A stretch of DNA of 54,244 nt from a virus: positions 1 through 54,244 of the IMG/VR virus record IMGVR_UViG_3300036760_000101; one strand, 5' to 3'. The notes under the pieces were generated by a model. The model was not told the DNA's origin. It did not search any database and saw only the letters and a program-made list of their open reading frames with translations. The position numbers were made by a program, and so were the translations under genes. The first letter of the stretch is position 1, and every line of letters starts with the position of its first letter. Of this stretch, positions 17,592 through 54,244 are shown piece by piece.

Positions 17592-18773
17592 ATGAGTATA
17601 ACACATAGTTTTACAAGTACAAAAACTGATGGTGAAGATACCAGTTTAGTTAGACCAACTAACTGGAACGCTGTTCATACTATTTCTGGATATGAGACAG
17701 GACAGGTATTGTTCGGTAATATGTCACAGGATGCTGGTTTATTTTGGGATAATACATCTAATAGTAAAATATTATCTATTAAATCAGATGTAAATAATTA
17801 TTGTGGTATTTTACGGTTAGGGTGTCCATCGCTTGCGAGTACATATAACGATTTGGGGTTCGTGCAATTCTGCAATGGAACACAAATAAATGCACAAATT
17901 TATGCAAAGCCAATTGGTTCTAATTTAGATTCTGGATCATTAAGGTTTTATACTCGTGTAACTGGTGGTGCATTAAGTTTACGTCTTACAATATTCGATT
18001 CTGGTGAGGTAGGCATAGGTGCTCCAAGTCCAACCAATATTCTTAGTTTAGGAAATACTACTGCACAAAAATTCTGGATAGAAAATAGTATTACTGATGT
18101 AGTAGGTAGAGCATTAACTATTGCTGCTGGTGGAACTATTGCTGGAACAAACGTAGATAATGTTATTGGTGGTAATCTTATATTACAATCTGGTTTAGGT
18201 ACTGGTACTGGAGAAAGTACAATTTCATTCCAAACAGGTACTACCCTAACAACTGGAAAAACATTACAAACAATGTCTACTAAGATGACTATTTTGGGTA
18301 ATGGTAATGTTGGTATAGGGATTGAAAATCCAACACATATACTTCAAGTAAGGGGTTCGGGATATGCTCAAGTTTCAATAACAGATGAAGATAATAGGCA
18401 TATGGAAATAGGTATTAGTGGTGCAGCAGTACATTATGGTGCAGGTATATGGATGAGTAGTACACAACAAATTAACCTTTATAATGCTGGAATATCTCTT
18501 GGTAGTTTTGTTTCTAATGACCCACCAGCAGGGGGGCTTTCTTGTAGCGGAAGTGTAGGTATAGGCGACCCCTCACCTGGAGAATTATTGGATGTAGCTG
18601 GAAATATAGACTTAACTGGTGTGTTAAAAATAGACGATATTCAAGTTGTAAGTAATCGTGTTGTTGATTCCAGAATATCCAATACACCCAATTCTGGTGA
18701 TGCAACTACGGATGATTTAATAGATGCAATGCGTGATGCCATGTTGTCACACGGATTAATGGCTGCCTCGTAG
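17592..18773 (+). CDS. Tail fibre / receptor-binding-like protein
   Basis: The protein has 393 residues. The N-terminus (SITHSFTSTKTDGEDTSL, then VRPTNWNAVHTI) is a recurrent opening of phage fibre proteins. The shaft is Gly/Thr/Asn-rich beta sequence with repeated GNVGIGIENPTHIL- and GSVGIGDPSPGELL-type turns, a pattern of trimeric fibres. The end (DDLIDAMRDAMLSHGLMAAS) is helical. A weak site (AGGTGATTAA) precedes the start. It is probably a host-contact protein. Confidence 0.68.
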   Translation: MSITHSFTSTKTDGEDTSLVRPTNWNAVHTISGYETGQVLFGNMSQDAGLFWDNTSNSKILSIKSDVNNYCGILRLGCPSLASTYNDLGFVQFCNGTQINAQIYAKPIGSNLDSGSLRFYTRVTGGALSLRLTIFDSGEVGIGAPSPTNILSLGNTTAQKFWIENSITDVVGRALTIAAGGTIAGTNVDNVIGGNLILQSGLGTGTGESTISFQTGTTLTTGKTLQTMSTKMTILGNGNVGIGIENPTHILQVRGSGYAQVSITDEDNRHMEIGISGAAVHYGAGIWMSSTQQINLYNAGISLGSFVSNDPPAGGLSCSGSVGIGDPSPGELLDVAGNIDLTGVLKIDDIQVVSNRVVDSRISNTPNSGDATTDDLIDAMRDAMLSHGLMAAS

Positions 18774-18780
18774 GAGATGT

Positions 18781-19476
18781 ATGGCATTTAAACAAGACAG
18801 TTTCCAGAATGATACTTTTCAGCTATATACTTTTGGTAGGGTATTTGCTGGAAGTGTGACATTTATAGGAAATATAATCAGAAGTACAGGAAAGGTATTG
18901 TCTGGTGGATTAACTACAGCAGGAAATATTATAAACCAAACCAGTAAGGCATTAATTGGTAACTTAACTTCTTCTGGAAATATCATAAAGGAAATATATA
19001 GAACTTTAATTGGTAATCTGACATTAACTGGAAATCTTGTGAAGTTAATATATAAGACCTTTGCTGGTGCTATGGATTTTATGGGAAATATTATAAAAAT
19101 TACTGGTAAAGTATTGAGTGGTGCATTAAGTTCCATAGGAAGTATTACAAAAACAATAAATAAAATATTACCTGGCATCTTATCCCTTACTGGAAATATT
19201 ATAAAAGCAATAAGTACACATCTATCTGGTATATTATCTTTTATTGGAATAACTGGTAAATTATTTAAAATTACCATACATGGTACTATATTTTTCTCTG
19301 GTATAATAATTAAAAAAATTAATAAAGCATTACATAGTATAGTATCATTTATTGGTAGTCTCTATAAAATTCAATCAATACAAACAATATTAAAAATAGT
19401 ATTCACATTGAGAAATTCATTCTCAAGATTTTTATTTAGGAAACCTAAGATTTATTTTAATAAGGAGGATGAATAA
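18781..19476 (+). CDS. Protein built of ten 18-residue repeats
   Basis: The protein has 231 residues. Residues 18-197 divide without gaps into ten units of exactly 18 residues with the pattern xxKxLxGxLxxxGNIIKx, for example TSKALIGNLTSSGNIIKE and INKILPGILSLTGNIIKA. The last 34 residues are basic and hydrophobic (FSRFLFRKPKIYFNKEDE). The spacing suggests a solenoid in which Gly marks turns. It lies between fibre-like genes and has a partner at 20815. The repeat units are established from sequence; the fold and role are inference. Confidence 0.68.
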   Translation: MAFKQDSFQNDTFQLYTFGRVFAGSVTFIGNIIRSTGKVLSGGLTTAGNIINQTSKALIGNLTSSGNIIKEIYRTLIGNLTLTGNLVKLIYKTFAGAMDFMGNIIKITGKVLSGALSSIGSITKTINKILPGILSLTGNIIKAISTHLSGILSFIGITGKLFKITIHGTIFFSGIIIKKINKALHSIVSFIGSLYKIQSIQTILKIVFTLRNSFSRFLFRKPKIYFNKEDE

Positions 19477-20669
19477 TGGCATATTCCTATACGGTAAATT
19501 TATCATGTGCCAATAGAGCAGCAGCCCTAACGGAAATATGGGTTCGTATGGCTGCTATGGGTTGGACTTTACATGATGACATGTCTGGTTCAAGTTATCA
19601 AGTATGGAAAAGTAACGGAGAAAATGCTGACAGAATATATGAATATATACAAATAGAATATGTTACAGCAAATACCATAAAGTTTATAGCATTTGGATAC
19701 TGGAACGCATCAACCCATGCGGGAACTAATGGAACTGGTTTGTCTACACAATCCGTAACCACATCCGAATCTGGATTTTACTTATGGATATATGGAAATA
19801 AAAGTCTCGTTAAGGTAGAAACAAAAATTACAGCAACATACTATCGTACATTATTCGGACATTTACCAACTATATATTGGAATACACCAGTAAGCGATTT
19901 AACACAAAACGCAACATCTGGCTCAAGTGTAACCCTACACGTTACAAGCACTACTGGATTCGTAGCTGGAAGTTATTATCAAATATTTGGTGCTACTGGT
20001 GAGGGAAGGGATAAAGTTCAGGTATCTTCTATAACTAATCCTACAGATATGGTAATAGCAAGTTTACCAAGAAATTACAATACAGGTTCTTACATAGGAA
20101 CATGCCCATCGAGTTTTGGTGTGGGTGATGGTAATACTTTTTACAATACATGCACATGGCTTACTGCTGGAACTGGTACTGCTTTTGGTTCCTGTGCTCG
20201 ATATATTCCTGTTAATGTTGCTTATGAAGTTCCAGATGTCAGAACGGCAAAGGATTTAATATATCCAATGATATATCAATGCATATACGCAAGTAATTAT
20301 GGAATGATAGGATATTGTGATTCATATTTATTTGCTGCTTATGATGCTTCTTATTCATCTGAAGACACATACGGAGTAACGCAACAAGACTCTGGAACAG
20401 CAGAGAGTGGTGGAAATGATTCATTGACAGATTCAAATAAGTCATGGTCTACAGACCAATGGATTAATAAGGCAGTTATTATAACATTTGGTACTGGCAT
20501 TGGTCAGATAAGAAAAATATCATCCAATACAGGAACAATATTAACCGTATCCGTTAACTGGTCTACAAACCCAAGTTCAGATTCTCAATATGCTATTTGT
20601 GATGAAGCATATAGGGTATTGGATATAACAAGCACAACCCTGGGTATGGCATGTAGGGAAGGGGTATAG
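19476..20669 (+). CDS. Tail/fibre-like protein
   Basis: The protein has 397 residues. It starts on the stop of the repeat protein (TAATGG) after an AAGGAGG site. The N-terminal part (YSYTVNLSCANRAAALTEIW, then WTLHDDMSGSSYQVW) has the same general style as the junction gene at 53661. The middle has a beta segment (VTLHVTSTTGFVAGSYYQIF) typical of fibre insertion domains. Several Cys residues are present. It is probably an adsorption protein; no named family. Confidence 0.62.
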   Translation: MAYSYTVNLSCANRAAALTEIWVRMAAMGWTLHDDMSGSSYQVWKSNGENADRIYEYIQIEYVTANTIKFIAFGYWNASTHAGTNGTGLSTQSVTTSESGFYLWIYGNKSLVKVETKITATYYRTLFGHLPTIYWNTPVSDLTQNATSGSSVTLHVTSTTGFVAGSYYQIFGATGEGRDKVQVSSITNPTDMVIASLPRNYNTGSYIGTCPSSFGVGDGNTFYNTCTWLTAGTGTAFGSCARYIPVNVAYEVPDVRTAKDLIYPMIYQCIYASNYGMIGYCDSYLFAAYDASYSSEDTYGVTQQDSGTAESGGNDSLTDSNKSWSTDQWINKAVIITFGTGIGQIRKISSNTGTILTVSVNWSTNPSSDSQYAICDEAYRVLDITSTTLGMACREGV

Positions 20670-20815
20670 TGGCTAATCATATTGCCATAAAGGTAAGTTC
20701 TAATTTTTTTTCCACCATGATTAGGGTTGCATCATGGTTTAGTGGTGGAAATATTGTACCAAGAGAATTTCATCAAATAATTAAATTTAAAAAGAAATTA
20801 CATAAGAAGGGTTAA
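20669..20815 (+). CDS. Small basic coupled protein (GTG start)
   Basis: The protein has 48 residues, starting ANHIAIKVSSNFFS after the initiator. Its GTG overlaps the preceding TAG by one base, and its TAA overlaps the next ATG (TAATGG), so it bridges two genes by translational coupling. AGGGAAGGGG lies upstream. The end (FKKKLHKKG) is strongly basic. Function unknown. Confidence 0.55.
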   Translation: MANHIAIKVSSNFFSTMIRVASWFSGGNIVPREFHQIIKFKKKLHKKG

Positions 20816-21642
20816 TGGCTCATCATAGTGCAATAGTAATTACGCTTGCTGAGGAATATTCACATGATACATCTGGTGATGTAGATATGTCTGGCGTTAT
20901 AACAAAACAAACAGACAAGATAACATATGGTGGATTAATCTTTTCGGGCATACTTGATACCCTTAAGGCTTTCTTTTGTCCATTAACTGCATCTCTTAGC
21001 TTTGCTGGAGATATAATAAAGAAAACATATAGAAATTTACATGCAAGTATGATTACATATGGAACTATATCCAAATTAACTATAAGAATTGTTAATGGAG
21101 CTATAGGTTTTATTGGTAATATAACCAAGATTCCCGATAAAGTCCTGAGTGCCATTTTAGGCTCATCGGGTTCCATATCCCATGCTGTGTATAAAGTTAA
21201 GGAACTTATTGCAGCCTTGGGCTTTTCAGGAAGTCTTGTAAGGAATATAAACAAAGAATTGACTGGTATTGTAACATTCTATAGGGTATATACAAAACTT
21301 ATACAAAAATATATGTTAAGTATATTTAATCCAAATGGAAATGTGTATAGAAAATCATACAGGTCACTACAGGCTGCATTATCCTTTATCGGTAATGTAT
21401 CGTCAATTTTCCTGGAATTATATCATAAGGTTCTTAACGGAATCGTAGGGTTTAGTGGAACAATATTAAAGACACCCAATAAGGTTTTATTCGGTGTTTT
21501 ATCCATAAATGGAGTTCAGGGTTTAGTATTAACAATAGGAAGAATATTGGGATTTCAAAATCCAATAGTTAAATTCCTATTAAGAAAGGCAGGGATTGAC
21601 CTTACCAAAAGGGAATCGTCTGCTAAATTTAGAATGAGATAG
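20815..21642 (+). CDS. Second 18-residue-repeat protein
   Basis: The protein has 275 residues and is a diverged relative of the repeat protein at 18781. Units such as TIRIVNGAIGFIGNITKI, PDKVLSAILGSSGSISHA and SYRSLQAALSFIGNVSSI keep the 18-residue period, with a few units lengthened by two to four residues. The C-terminus (NPIVKFLLRKAGIDLTKRES) resembles the basic hydrophobic end of the first. Two copies separated by a fibre-like gene suggest duplication with that gene, or paired structural roles. Confidence 0.65.
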   Translation: MAHHSAIVITLAEEYSHDTSGDVDMSGVITKQTDKITYGGLIFSGILDTLKAFFCPLTASLSFAGDIIKKTYRNLHASMITYGTISKLTIRIVNGAIGFIGNITKIPDKVLSAILGSSGSISHAVYKVKELIAALGFSGSLVRNINKELTGIVTFYRVYTKLIQKYMLSIFNPNGNVYRKSYRSLQAALSFIGNVSSIFLELYHKVLNGIVGFSGTILKTPNKVLFGVLSINGVQGLVLTIGRILGFQNPIVKFLLRKAGIDLTKRESSAKFRMR

Positions 21643-21651
21643 GAGGGACTA

Positions 21652-22143
21652 ATGTTTAAGTTTTTAAGGAAAATCTTTCTCGGATATAATCCAGAAGATG
21701 TGTTGGTTTTTAAATCAGAATTATTTGCTAAAGTAATTCATGCAAATGGTAAAGTAAGAAATTTGGGTCTTATCTGCACAAGAGTTGTAACAACTGCTGG
21801 CGTTACTTATTTGGCTGCTGACTTTGCTGGTGGGTCAAACCACATAGGTCTATTTAAATATCATGGTTGTGGTACAGGAACTAACGATGAAGACATAGAG
21901 AACATAGCATTACAGACACCAATAGAATCAAGGTCAACTGGTAGTCAGGGTTCGGTTGACAATGTCTATACAACCATAGCAACTATAGCCATGACAGACA
22001 CGCATCAGGTTACTGAACATGGACTATTTTCTGCCCCAACAAGTGGAACGCTTTGGGACAGGTCTAAATTTTCAGTAATTAATGTAATAAGTGGAGACTC
22101 AATTCAGTTTACCTATGCACTCACTTGCACAGCTGGGGGTTAA
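21652..22143 (+). CDS. Small tail-associated structural protein
   Basis: The protein has 163 residues after an AGGAGG site. The N-terminus is basic and hydrophobic (MFKFLRKIFLGYNPED). Core strands follow (FAGGSNHIGLFKYHGCGTGT; TATIAMTDTHQVTEHGLFSA), and the sequence ends in TYALTCTAGG. I have seen this core type in proteins near phage fibre genes. It is likely a tail or fibre-attachment protein. Confidence 0.62.
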   Translation: MFKFLRKIFLGYNPEDVLVFKSELFAKVIHANGKVRNLGLICTRVVTTAGVTYLAADFAGGSNHIGLFKYHGCGTGTNDEDIENIALQTPIESRSTGSQGSVDNVYTTIATIAMTDTHQVTEHGLFSAPTSGTLWDRSKFSVINVISGDSIQFTYALTCTAGG

Positions 22144-25257: not shown

Positions 25258-25434
25258 TCACACCCCCTCGCCCCTAAGTTTATGATAGACATCCTTAACT
25301 TTATTTAGCTCCTGCCTCGTTGCATAGACATCCTTAACTTTATTTAGCTCATGCCTCGTTGCCCTGAGTTTCTTTGATATTCCCCTGATATATAACAATA
25401 AAGAAAATATTATAAAAATTAATAGATATGTCAT
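25258..25434 (-). CDS. 58-residue membrane-anchored protein with duplicated 13-residue unit
   Basis: The N-terminal helix MTYLLIFIIFSLLLYI is followed by a basic patch and two tandem copies of a 13-residue unit, ATRHELNKVKDVY and ATRQELNKVKDVY. An AAGGA site lies 5 bases before the ATG, and the TGA is next to the following gene's start. It could form a short coiled coil on the membrane surface. The gene is too short for many gene callers. Confidence 0.65.
   Translation of the reverse strand: MTYLLIFIIFSLLLYIRGISKKLRATRHELNKVKDVYATRQELNKVKDVYHKLRGEGV
25285..25362. repeat. 39-bp tandem duplication inside a small gene
   Basis: Two direct copies of a 39-bp unit (25285-25323 and 25324-25362) differ by one internal base. 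The period equals 13 codons, so the reading frame of the small membrane gene is kept. The near identity suggests a recent slippage or recombination event. Confidence 0.85.
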
Positions 25435-51039: not shown

Positions 51040-51366
51040 ATGTTACAGGAACTTTTTGCGGTAGGAAAGATTGTAGGTACTGGTTCCGCTATTCATGTTC
51101 ATCTTGGTTTTATTCCAAGATACGTCAGACTCTTTAATGCGTCAGATGCTACAGTTCCGTTCCTGGAATGGTTTCAGGGTATGCCAGCAGGTTACGCACA
51201 TAAAACGCTAATCAGTACAAAAGATTTAAGTTCCTATGCAGCAAGTGGTTGTATTAGTGAATATGCTGGTACTGATGCACAGGGTGATGGTGCTGGTTTT
51301 ACACTTGGAACAGACAGTGACCTTAATGGCTCAACGGATGTAATATTCTATTTGGCATTGAGGTAA
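51040..51366 (+). CDS. Tandem-duplicated small structural protein, copy 1
   Basis: The protein has 108 residues and is closely related to the next gene. Shared blocks include PRYV-(R/K)-LFN, DAT-x-P, HKT-x-IST and AG-x-DAQGDGAGFT, ending DVIFYLALR. It is beta-rich and suited to capsid decoration. AGGAGG precedes the ATG. Being after the capsid gene supports a cement or surface role, which is inference. Confidence 0.65.
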   Translation: MLQELFAVGKIVGTGSAIHVHLGFIPRYVRLFNASDATVPFLEWFQGMPAGYAHKTLISTKDLSSYAASGCISEYAGTDAQGDGAGFTLGTDSDLNGSTDVIFYLALR

Positions 51367-51370
51367 AAAC

Positions 51371-51694
51371 ATGATACAGGAACTTTACTCTATAGGACAA
51401 GTTGTAGGTACTGCTGCTGCTATTAATGTTCATTGTGGATTTGTGCCAAGATATGTAAAGTTATTTAACGTTACAGATGCTACACTTCCACAAATGGAAT
51501 GGTTTGATAGTATGGCAGCAGCCCATTCACACAAAACTTATATTAGTACCAATGATTTTTCATCTTATGCTGCTACTGGAATTACTGCCTATGCTGGTAG
51601 TGATGCACAGGGAGACGGTGCTGGTTTTACAATCGGTACTGATACACAGATGAATGGCATCGGAGACGTAATTTTTTATTTAGCACTTAGGTAA
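51371..51694 (+). CDS. Tandem-duplicated small structural protein, copy 2
   Basis: The protein has 107 residues, the second copy of the pair. It starts 4 bases after copy 1 and no AGGAGG stands directly before it, so translation is probably coupled. It differs mainly in surface residues and has one deletion near residue 70. A strong terminator follows, so the pair ends a head-gene transcript. Confidence 0.65.
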   Translation: MIQELYSIGQVVGTAAAINVHCGFVPRYVKLFNVTDATLPQMEWFDSMAAAHSHKTYISTNDFSSYAATGITAYAGSDAQGDGAGFTIGTDTQMNGIGDVIFYLALR

Positions 51695-53660: not shown

Positions 53661-54244
53661 ATGGCTTGGGTAACTTTTACTTGTGCTGGTACAATTTTTG
53701 ATGCTACCCTTGCTACCAATGCAATAGCAAATGGGTGGACAAGATGTGAGACTGGTTATCAATGGATTAAACCAGCAAATTCAAATAATGTATTTTATGG
53801 AAGGATTACACAATTAGGTGCTATAAGGATTTATACTGAGGTTAATGCCACTGGTTACTTATATACAATTTATGAACCAGCAGTCAGGGAGTCCTATGAT
53901 ATGGGTTCACATACAGGAATAGGATTAGGATGGACAGGTTGGGGTAATCCTATTTATTGGGCTGGAAGAAGCGAAAATGATGTTGCAAGGGACTATACTT
54001 TCAATGGTTGGATAGGTAGTAATTCCATTTTTGGTAATGTAAGCCCTGACCCTTCAATTACAGGTGCATCTACATTTCCAATTTTTGCTTGTGTAACAAA
54101 AGGCTTTGATGGAATTGATCGTTTAGTTGCATTAGATATGCTTCCCAATGGTGGTGCATATCGTTGTAATTCACGTCTTATATATGCTACAGATTCACTT
54201 GCTTATTTTAATGGTTTACAAGTTGGTGGACTTGGAACGTGGGG
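53661..54244 (+). CDS. Tail/fibre-like protein, 5' part of the gene split by the window ends
   Basis: AAAGGAG lies ahead of the ATG at 53661. The protein starts MAWVTFTCAGTIFDATLATN and continues with IRIYTEVNATGYLYTIYEP and WGNPIYWAGRSENDVARDYT. It runs off the end in the frame that is open at base 2; joined, it has 307 residues and stops at 595. Its general style resembles the tail gene at 19476. Confidence 0.8.
   Translation, partial: MAWVTFTCAGTIFDATLATNAIANGWTRCETGYQWIKPANSNNVFYGRITQLGAIRIYTEVNATGYLYTIYEPAVRESYDMGSHTGIGLGWTGWGNPIYWAGRSENDVARDYTFNGWIGSNSIFGNVSPDPSITGASTFPIFACVTKGFDGIDRLVALDMLPNGGAYRCNSRLIYATDSLAYFNGLQVGGLGTW
53990..54244. repeat. Terminal overlap, right copy (circular join)
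   Basis: This is the second copy of bases 1-255. Differences at 54016 (G) and 54117 (G) against A at 27 and 128 change Asp to Gly and Asn to Asp in the encoded protein when read left copy to right copy. Confidence 0.93.

Follow-up and report, generated by a model that had tools for sequence, protein, structure and literature searches.

What a viral protein composed largely of one recurring 18-residue unit does for its virus is the question raised by the locus at 18781-19476 of the window, by which we mean the whole 54,244-nucleotide stretch of DNA analysed here (IMG/VR virus record IMGVR_UViG_3300036760_000101). The open reading frame (ORF) follows an AGGAG motif at 18772-18776 and is laid out as follows:

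18781..19476, plus strand: repeat protein, 231 aa (ORF; E = 1.3e-61 with a unit profile free of window sequences)
18781..18831, plus strand: short N-terminal cap, MAFKQDSFQNDTFQLYT (from the sequence)
18832..19371, plus strand: ten gapless 18-residue units, residues 18-197 (from repeat analysis)
19372..19473, plus strand: C-terminal tail, basic/aromatic (..SFSRFLFRKPKIYFNKEDE), common to an array-less 69-aa version in the related phage G001

The self-identity of the 231-aa protein at a lag of 18 residues was 0.353 (lag 36, 0.32; lag 54, 0.31), whereas 2000 composition-matched shuffles averaged 0.093 at lag 18 and never exceeded 0.171. Together with the gapless tiling, this confirmed the original prediction of ten phased 18-residue units across residues 18-197. 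The DNA of the ORF also repeats at 54 nt (0.516). Within the unit, position 13 is Gly in 10/10 copies and position 7 in 9/10, position 5 is L, F or I in all ten, and K or R occupies position 17 in nine and position 3 in eight. The phasing, earlier described as perfect, held with a qualification: only 3-10 of 18 residues are common between units, unit DNA identity is mostly 0.4-0.7, and units 8-10 retain the GNIIK core only in degraded form. On these identities the units are old and diverged, and recent duplication as the sole cause of the window array was ruled out because the units share so few residues. The protein is hydrophobic overall and has hardly any acidic residues.

To place this protein, we searched for relatives. 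Queried alone, it returned none by tblastn in 50,697 phages, in a back-translated IMG/VR scan or via a two-sequence alignment; relatives surfaced only with an in-register consensus of the unit, which recovered 3 + 15 loci in IMG/VR, and many more came via a linked gene described below. A profile search with the 18-residue unit, proposed in the original prediction as a check, matched 75 proteins from 70 loci, with 1098 units in total and 2-51 in each protein, a sample gathered by repeat or linkage that includes some near-duplicates. None of the 75 family proteins matched the unit profile once shuffled. With the window and its sister phage G001 left out of the profile, the 18781 protein was recovered at E = 1.3e-61 and a second window protein, at 20815, at 2.3e-36, with 0/500 shuffles matching. 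The family consensus is [T]x[KR]x[L]x[GA]x[LVI][ST][FPS]x[G]x[LVI]x[KR]x. Over the 1098 units, G13 is conserved in 89%, G7 in 75% and [ST]10 in 82%, and Pro is found at position 11 in 18% and anywhere in the unit in 28%. Units are most often spaced by 18 residues (764 cases), followed by 20 (170), 22 (12), 19 (9) and 21 (4). Seven loci (L031, L057, L062, L067, L090, L097 and L104) have a 20-residue unit at every third or fourth place (18,18,20 or 18,18,18,20), a rhythm that looks as if a superhelix needed periodic adjustment.

No family in Pfam or PHROGs covers the repeat, in either the window proteins or the family members, and no match to a known non-structural family occurred in the family searches. 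DUF5671 (PF18920) scored 22.2 bits against a gathering threshold of 28.4 and matched 1/61 family rows only. Other Pfam matches of members (Aldolase, HAMP_2 and others) concerned 1-3 of 61 rows each and were taken as chance, and a PDB profile match, 9e5c_0q, was discarded as a low-complexity repeat of another kind. Nor does the repeat protein match a tail-fibre family in Pfam or PHROGs, where only its upstream neighbour does. We do not file it as a member of such a family; what we propose is a fibre-like function, and profiles of this type may miss a protein consisting only of repeats. No members were confirmed in two scans of 84,980 species genomes, whose sensitivity, including that for prophages, low-complexity filtering may limit. 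A literature search found no description of the repeat. In the libraries and papers searched, neither the repeat family nor its spread or partner gene seems to have been described; the kind of protein, a repeat beta-solenoid fibre, is already known. One long family repeat ORF, L018:5148-6959 (MW202615.1), runs antisense to the deposited gene UOF79353.1, which for that reason was apparently called on the wrong strand.

Family members differ in the domains that they carry and in the length of the array. Locus L024 has an N-terminal Laminin_G_3 (LamG_3/concanavalin) domain (4.7e-7), and L033 has a LamG domain inside the array, at residues 754-894 (6.5e-9); a LamG-like match in L029 (8.5e-5) fell below the Pfam cut-off. 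Lectin-like domains next to or within the array are consistent with a stalk exposed at the surface. In place of the 231-aa protein, the sister phage G001 encodes a 69-aa ORF (L016:9818-10027) that lacks repeats but has a related C-terminus. The C-terminal tail aligned with this ORF at a score of 73 versus 36+-6 for shuffled sequences (0/500). The short ORF looks like the repeat protein minus its whole array.

Structure prediction of the monomer gave two answers. AlphaFold2 (AF2) modelled the 18781 protein, with an alignment of 18 rows, as helical at low confidence (pLDDT 58.7, pTM 0.31). The structural neighbours of this model were ordinary helical bundles, and we set it aside as a guide to fold in view of its low confidence. 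The canonical relative L082, with 61 family rows, was modelled as a regular all-beta solenoid (pLDDT 73.7, approximately 80 over the repeats; pTM 0.61). By unit position, strand occupancy in the L082 model is high at 1-5 and 8-11, falls to zero at 13-14 and breaks partially at 6-7, which puts the corners on the two conserved glycines. The regular solenoid or fibre of the original prediction is therefore supported at the level of the family, by the all-beta model of the relative and by the tail-fibre surroundings, and not by the window protein's own model. Carried over to the window protein, whose fold and oligomeric state we infer, each unit (xxKxLxGxL[ST]xxGxLxKx) would make up a single beta-solenoid coil, in which a long strand runs from position 15 to position 5 of the following unit, the chain turns a corner at Gly7, a short strand spans 8-11 and a second corner falls at Gly13, with Leu5, Leu9 and Leu15 as the likely core. 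At the standard beta-solenoid rise (10 x ~0.48 nm), ten stacked coils would make a rod of ~5 nm, and gain or loss of units would alter its length, to none in the sister phage.

A Foldseek search of the L082 model against the PDB gave only E-values above 0.8, so the fold match rests on VIA re-alignment, which paired the model with solved beta-solenoids. The closest was region IV of the Marinomonas primoryensis antifreeze adhesin (3p4g; Z 21.8, rmsd 3.3 over 266 residues of the model), part of a large adhesin (PMC3492233) and likewise a long parallel beta-solenoid of short glycine-cornered coils. It differs in being bacterial and calcium-dependent, at 10% identity, and the phage unit shows no obvious calcium motif. 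Curli CsgA (8c50; Z 16.7) and Ag43 (7ko9; Z 14.5) are also repeat beta-solenoids, but they are secreted bacterial proteins built of other repeats (10-14% identity, rmsd 5.5-9.7). The long tail fibre of Agrobacterium phage 7-7-1 (gp015, 9rkv; Z 12.1) aligned over 178-433, within its beta-helical domain (177-453; PMC12796354). That fibre is part of a trimer and 10% identical; the likeness is structural, and no relation between the sequence repeats was apparent.

The repeats might instead form the intertwined shaft of a trimeric fibre, a triple beta-spiral or triple beta-helix in place of single-chain solenoids. Shafts of this type occur in the adenovirus fibre and in T4 gp5. We consider this unlikely. 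The strand-turn-Gly-strand pattern of each unit, with its variable spacer loops, does resemble fibre-shaft repeats, and the gene lies among tail-fibre genes. Against this, a PDB sequence search gave no match to such shafts, and the L082 model is a self-contained regular solenoid, albeit as a monomer prediction, which cannot separate a single-chain solenoid from an intertwined trimer, a distinction that the VIA matches do not make either.

Eighteen residues also correspond to five turns of an alpha helix, and the units could be amphipathic helices of a helical fibre, or of a tape-measure-like or membrane-active protein acting during DNA ejection. The hydrophobicity of the average family unit has its main periodicity at 100 degrees per residue (47% of power), more in keeping with an amphipathic helix than with a simple beta strand; the low-confidence helical model of the window protein, its hydrophobicity and its scarcity of acidic residues point the same way. 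Weak tape-measure matches (best PHROG E 2.2e-4) were partial, spread over several unrelated tape-measure families and probably compositional, and LamG domains inside arrays are unsuitable for a tape measure. A helix would moreover have to accommodate two conserved glycines per unit and prolines in over a quarter of units, and the length changes, mostly of two residues, would turn its face by ~200 degrees. The glycines, the frequent Pro at 11 and the steps of two argue for beta structure, as does the deep-alignment model of L082. The original prediction had further suggested that the hydrophobic repeats line or insert in membranes. This found no positive support: mean hydropathy over 19 residues never exceeds 1.45, and every unit carries basic residues. 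We regard the helical readings as quite improbable and retain the beta-solenoid.

To ask what such a solenoid might serve, we examined its genomic surroundings. The window has matching ends (1-255 and 53990-54244, 99% identical over 255 nt), and for this reason the genome is probably complete, either circularly closed or terminally redundant. Genes for a terminase (43161), a PHROG head-tail adaptor (46154), a capsid protein (49701), a head closure protein (4200) and a 1676-aa protein (11322) are followed by the tail-fibre-like gene (17592), the 18781 repeat gene, a 397-aa gene (19476), the second repeat gene (20815), a PHROG_5417 gene (21652) and a gene for a small hydrophobic protein (22477), after which come replication genes in the opposite orientation. 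The immediate neighbours are:

17592..18773, plus strand: tail-fibre-like protein, 393 aa, directly upstream of 18781 (PHROG tail fibre protein, 2.2e-7 and 2.3e-7)
19476..20669, plus strand: 397-aa protein between both repeat genes, 71% identical in G001
20815..21642, plus strand: second repeat protein (paralogue), 275 aa, 12 units spaced 18/20/22 (window-free profile, 2.3e-36)
21652..22143, plus strand: PHROG_5417 protein, 163 aa, linked partner of the repeat gene

The original prediction saw the repeat in one protein and missed the paralogue, in which units of 20 and 22 residues also occur. This second gene starts 1.3 kb downstream of the 18781 gene, has an orthologue in G001 (53% identical) and adjoins the PHROG_5417 gene, which lies 2.2 kb downstream of the 18781 gene. 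The 397-aa protein matched no family above threshold in Pfam or PHROGs.

Among the best 80 IMG/VR loci with homologues of the 21652 protein, 59 carry a repeat ORF, a percentage biased upwards since the query alignment derived from loci with the repeat and some loci are near-duplicates. All 59 linked ORFs lie on the same strand as the PHROG_5417 gene, 52 are downstream of it and 58 are within 4 kb; in only four of the 21 loci lacking a repeat ORF does the downstream sequence extend beyond 4 kb. In independent samples, whole-record searches of nine other terminase/portal relatives found the repeat in 0/9, and both genes occur together in one of 17 records related by capsid protein and are absent from the other 16, although several of these records are fragments. 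In G018, the capsid protein is 76% identical and the cassette is absent. Because capsid relatives mostly lack both genes and G001 is array-less, we take the module to be accessory and the array to be variable in length; by these genome comparisons, the repeat gene and PHROG_5417 constitute an exchangeable cassette.

Two of 11 PHROG_5417 homologues matched the Gp80 fibre protein (PF23140; best 6.5e-6), with the window's own copy below threshold (0.048). This resemblance to fibre I Gp80 of podophage GP4 belongs to the linked partner and not to the repeat protein. A few homologues matched PHROG tail fibre 4176 or, in one case, PHROG head protein 240 (1.2e-7). In the cultured phage ART, the gene immediately after the PHROG_5417-like one is annotated as a tail fibre gene, and in phage Simon a fibre-like gene, as judged from its sequence, follows the PHROG_5417-like gene. 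Tail-fibre neighbours and fibre-like homologues point to a role in host attachment. It is improbable that the repeat protein serves as a head fibre or decoration protein, or that it stays out of the virion and has no part in adsorption (e.g., as a lysis-region or host-interaction factor): the genes do lie near the late operon end beside the small hydrophobic protein, one PHROG_5417 homologue matches a head protein, and the module is downstream of a capsid-like gene in L020 and just upstream of the terminase in L117 and MW202615, but the tail-fibre neighbours in the window, ART and Simon, the lectin-like domains of family members and the exchange among capsid relatives all speak against it.

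We therefore favour, with a probability of roughly 0.6, a reading in which the 18781 protein is a beta-solenoid stalk of the phage host-recognition apparatus, within a tail fibre or adhesin cassette. The protein would be present in the virion, where it probably displays or spaces receptor-binding parts, such as the lectin-like domains in the arrays of other phages, and probably acts together with the neighbouring PHROG_5417 protein. We put forward more tentatively, at somewhat less than even odds, that this widespread, undescribed phage repeat family serves as a beta-solenoid ruler or stalk of adjustable length, inherited together with a PHROG_5417 adaptor in an exchangeable cassette for host attachment, with lectin domains plugged between coils. 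Most tail-fibre genes of uncultured phages escape recognition by sequence; the repeat and its linked partner, unnamed by family libraries, provide a sequence tag for candidate host-attachment cassettes in many environmental phages. With their variable coil number and inserted lectin domains, the arrays also provide a model, open to experiment, for the way in which phages extend and re-equip their adhesins.

Three further features of the window were noted. The late operon encodes, at 599-1948, a 449-aa protein with a DUF2341 domain (1e-18), likely a further surface protein. A 114-nt direct repeat (51253-51366 and 51581-51694, 75% identical) sits in the neighbouring small late genes 51040-51366 and 51371-51694. 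Finally, a tandem 39-nt repeat (25285-25362, 97% identical) is located near the start of the minus-strand ORFs.
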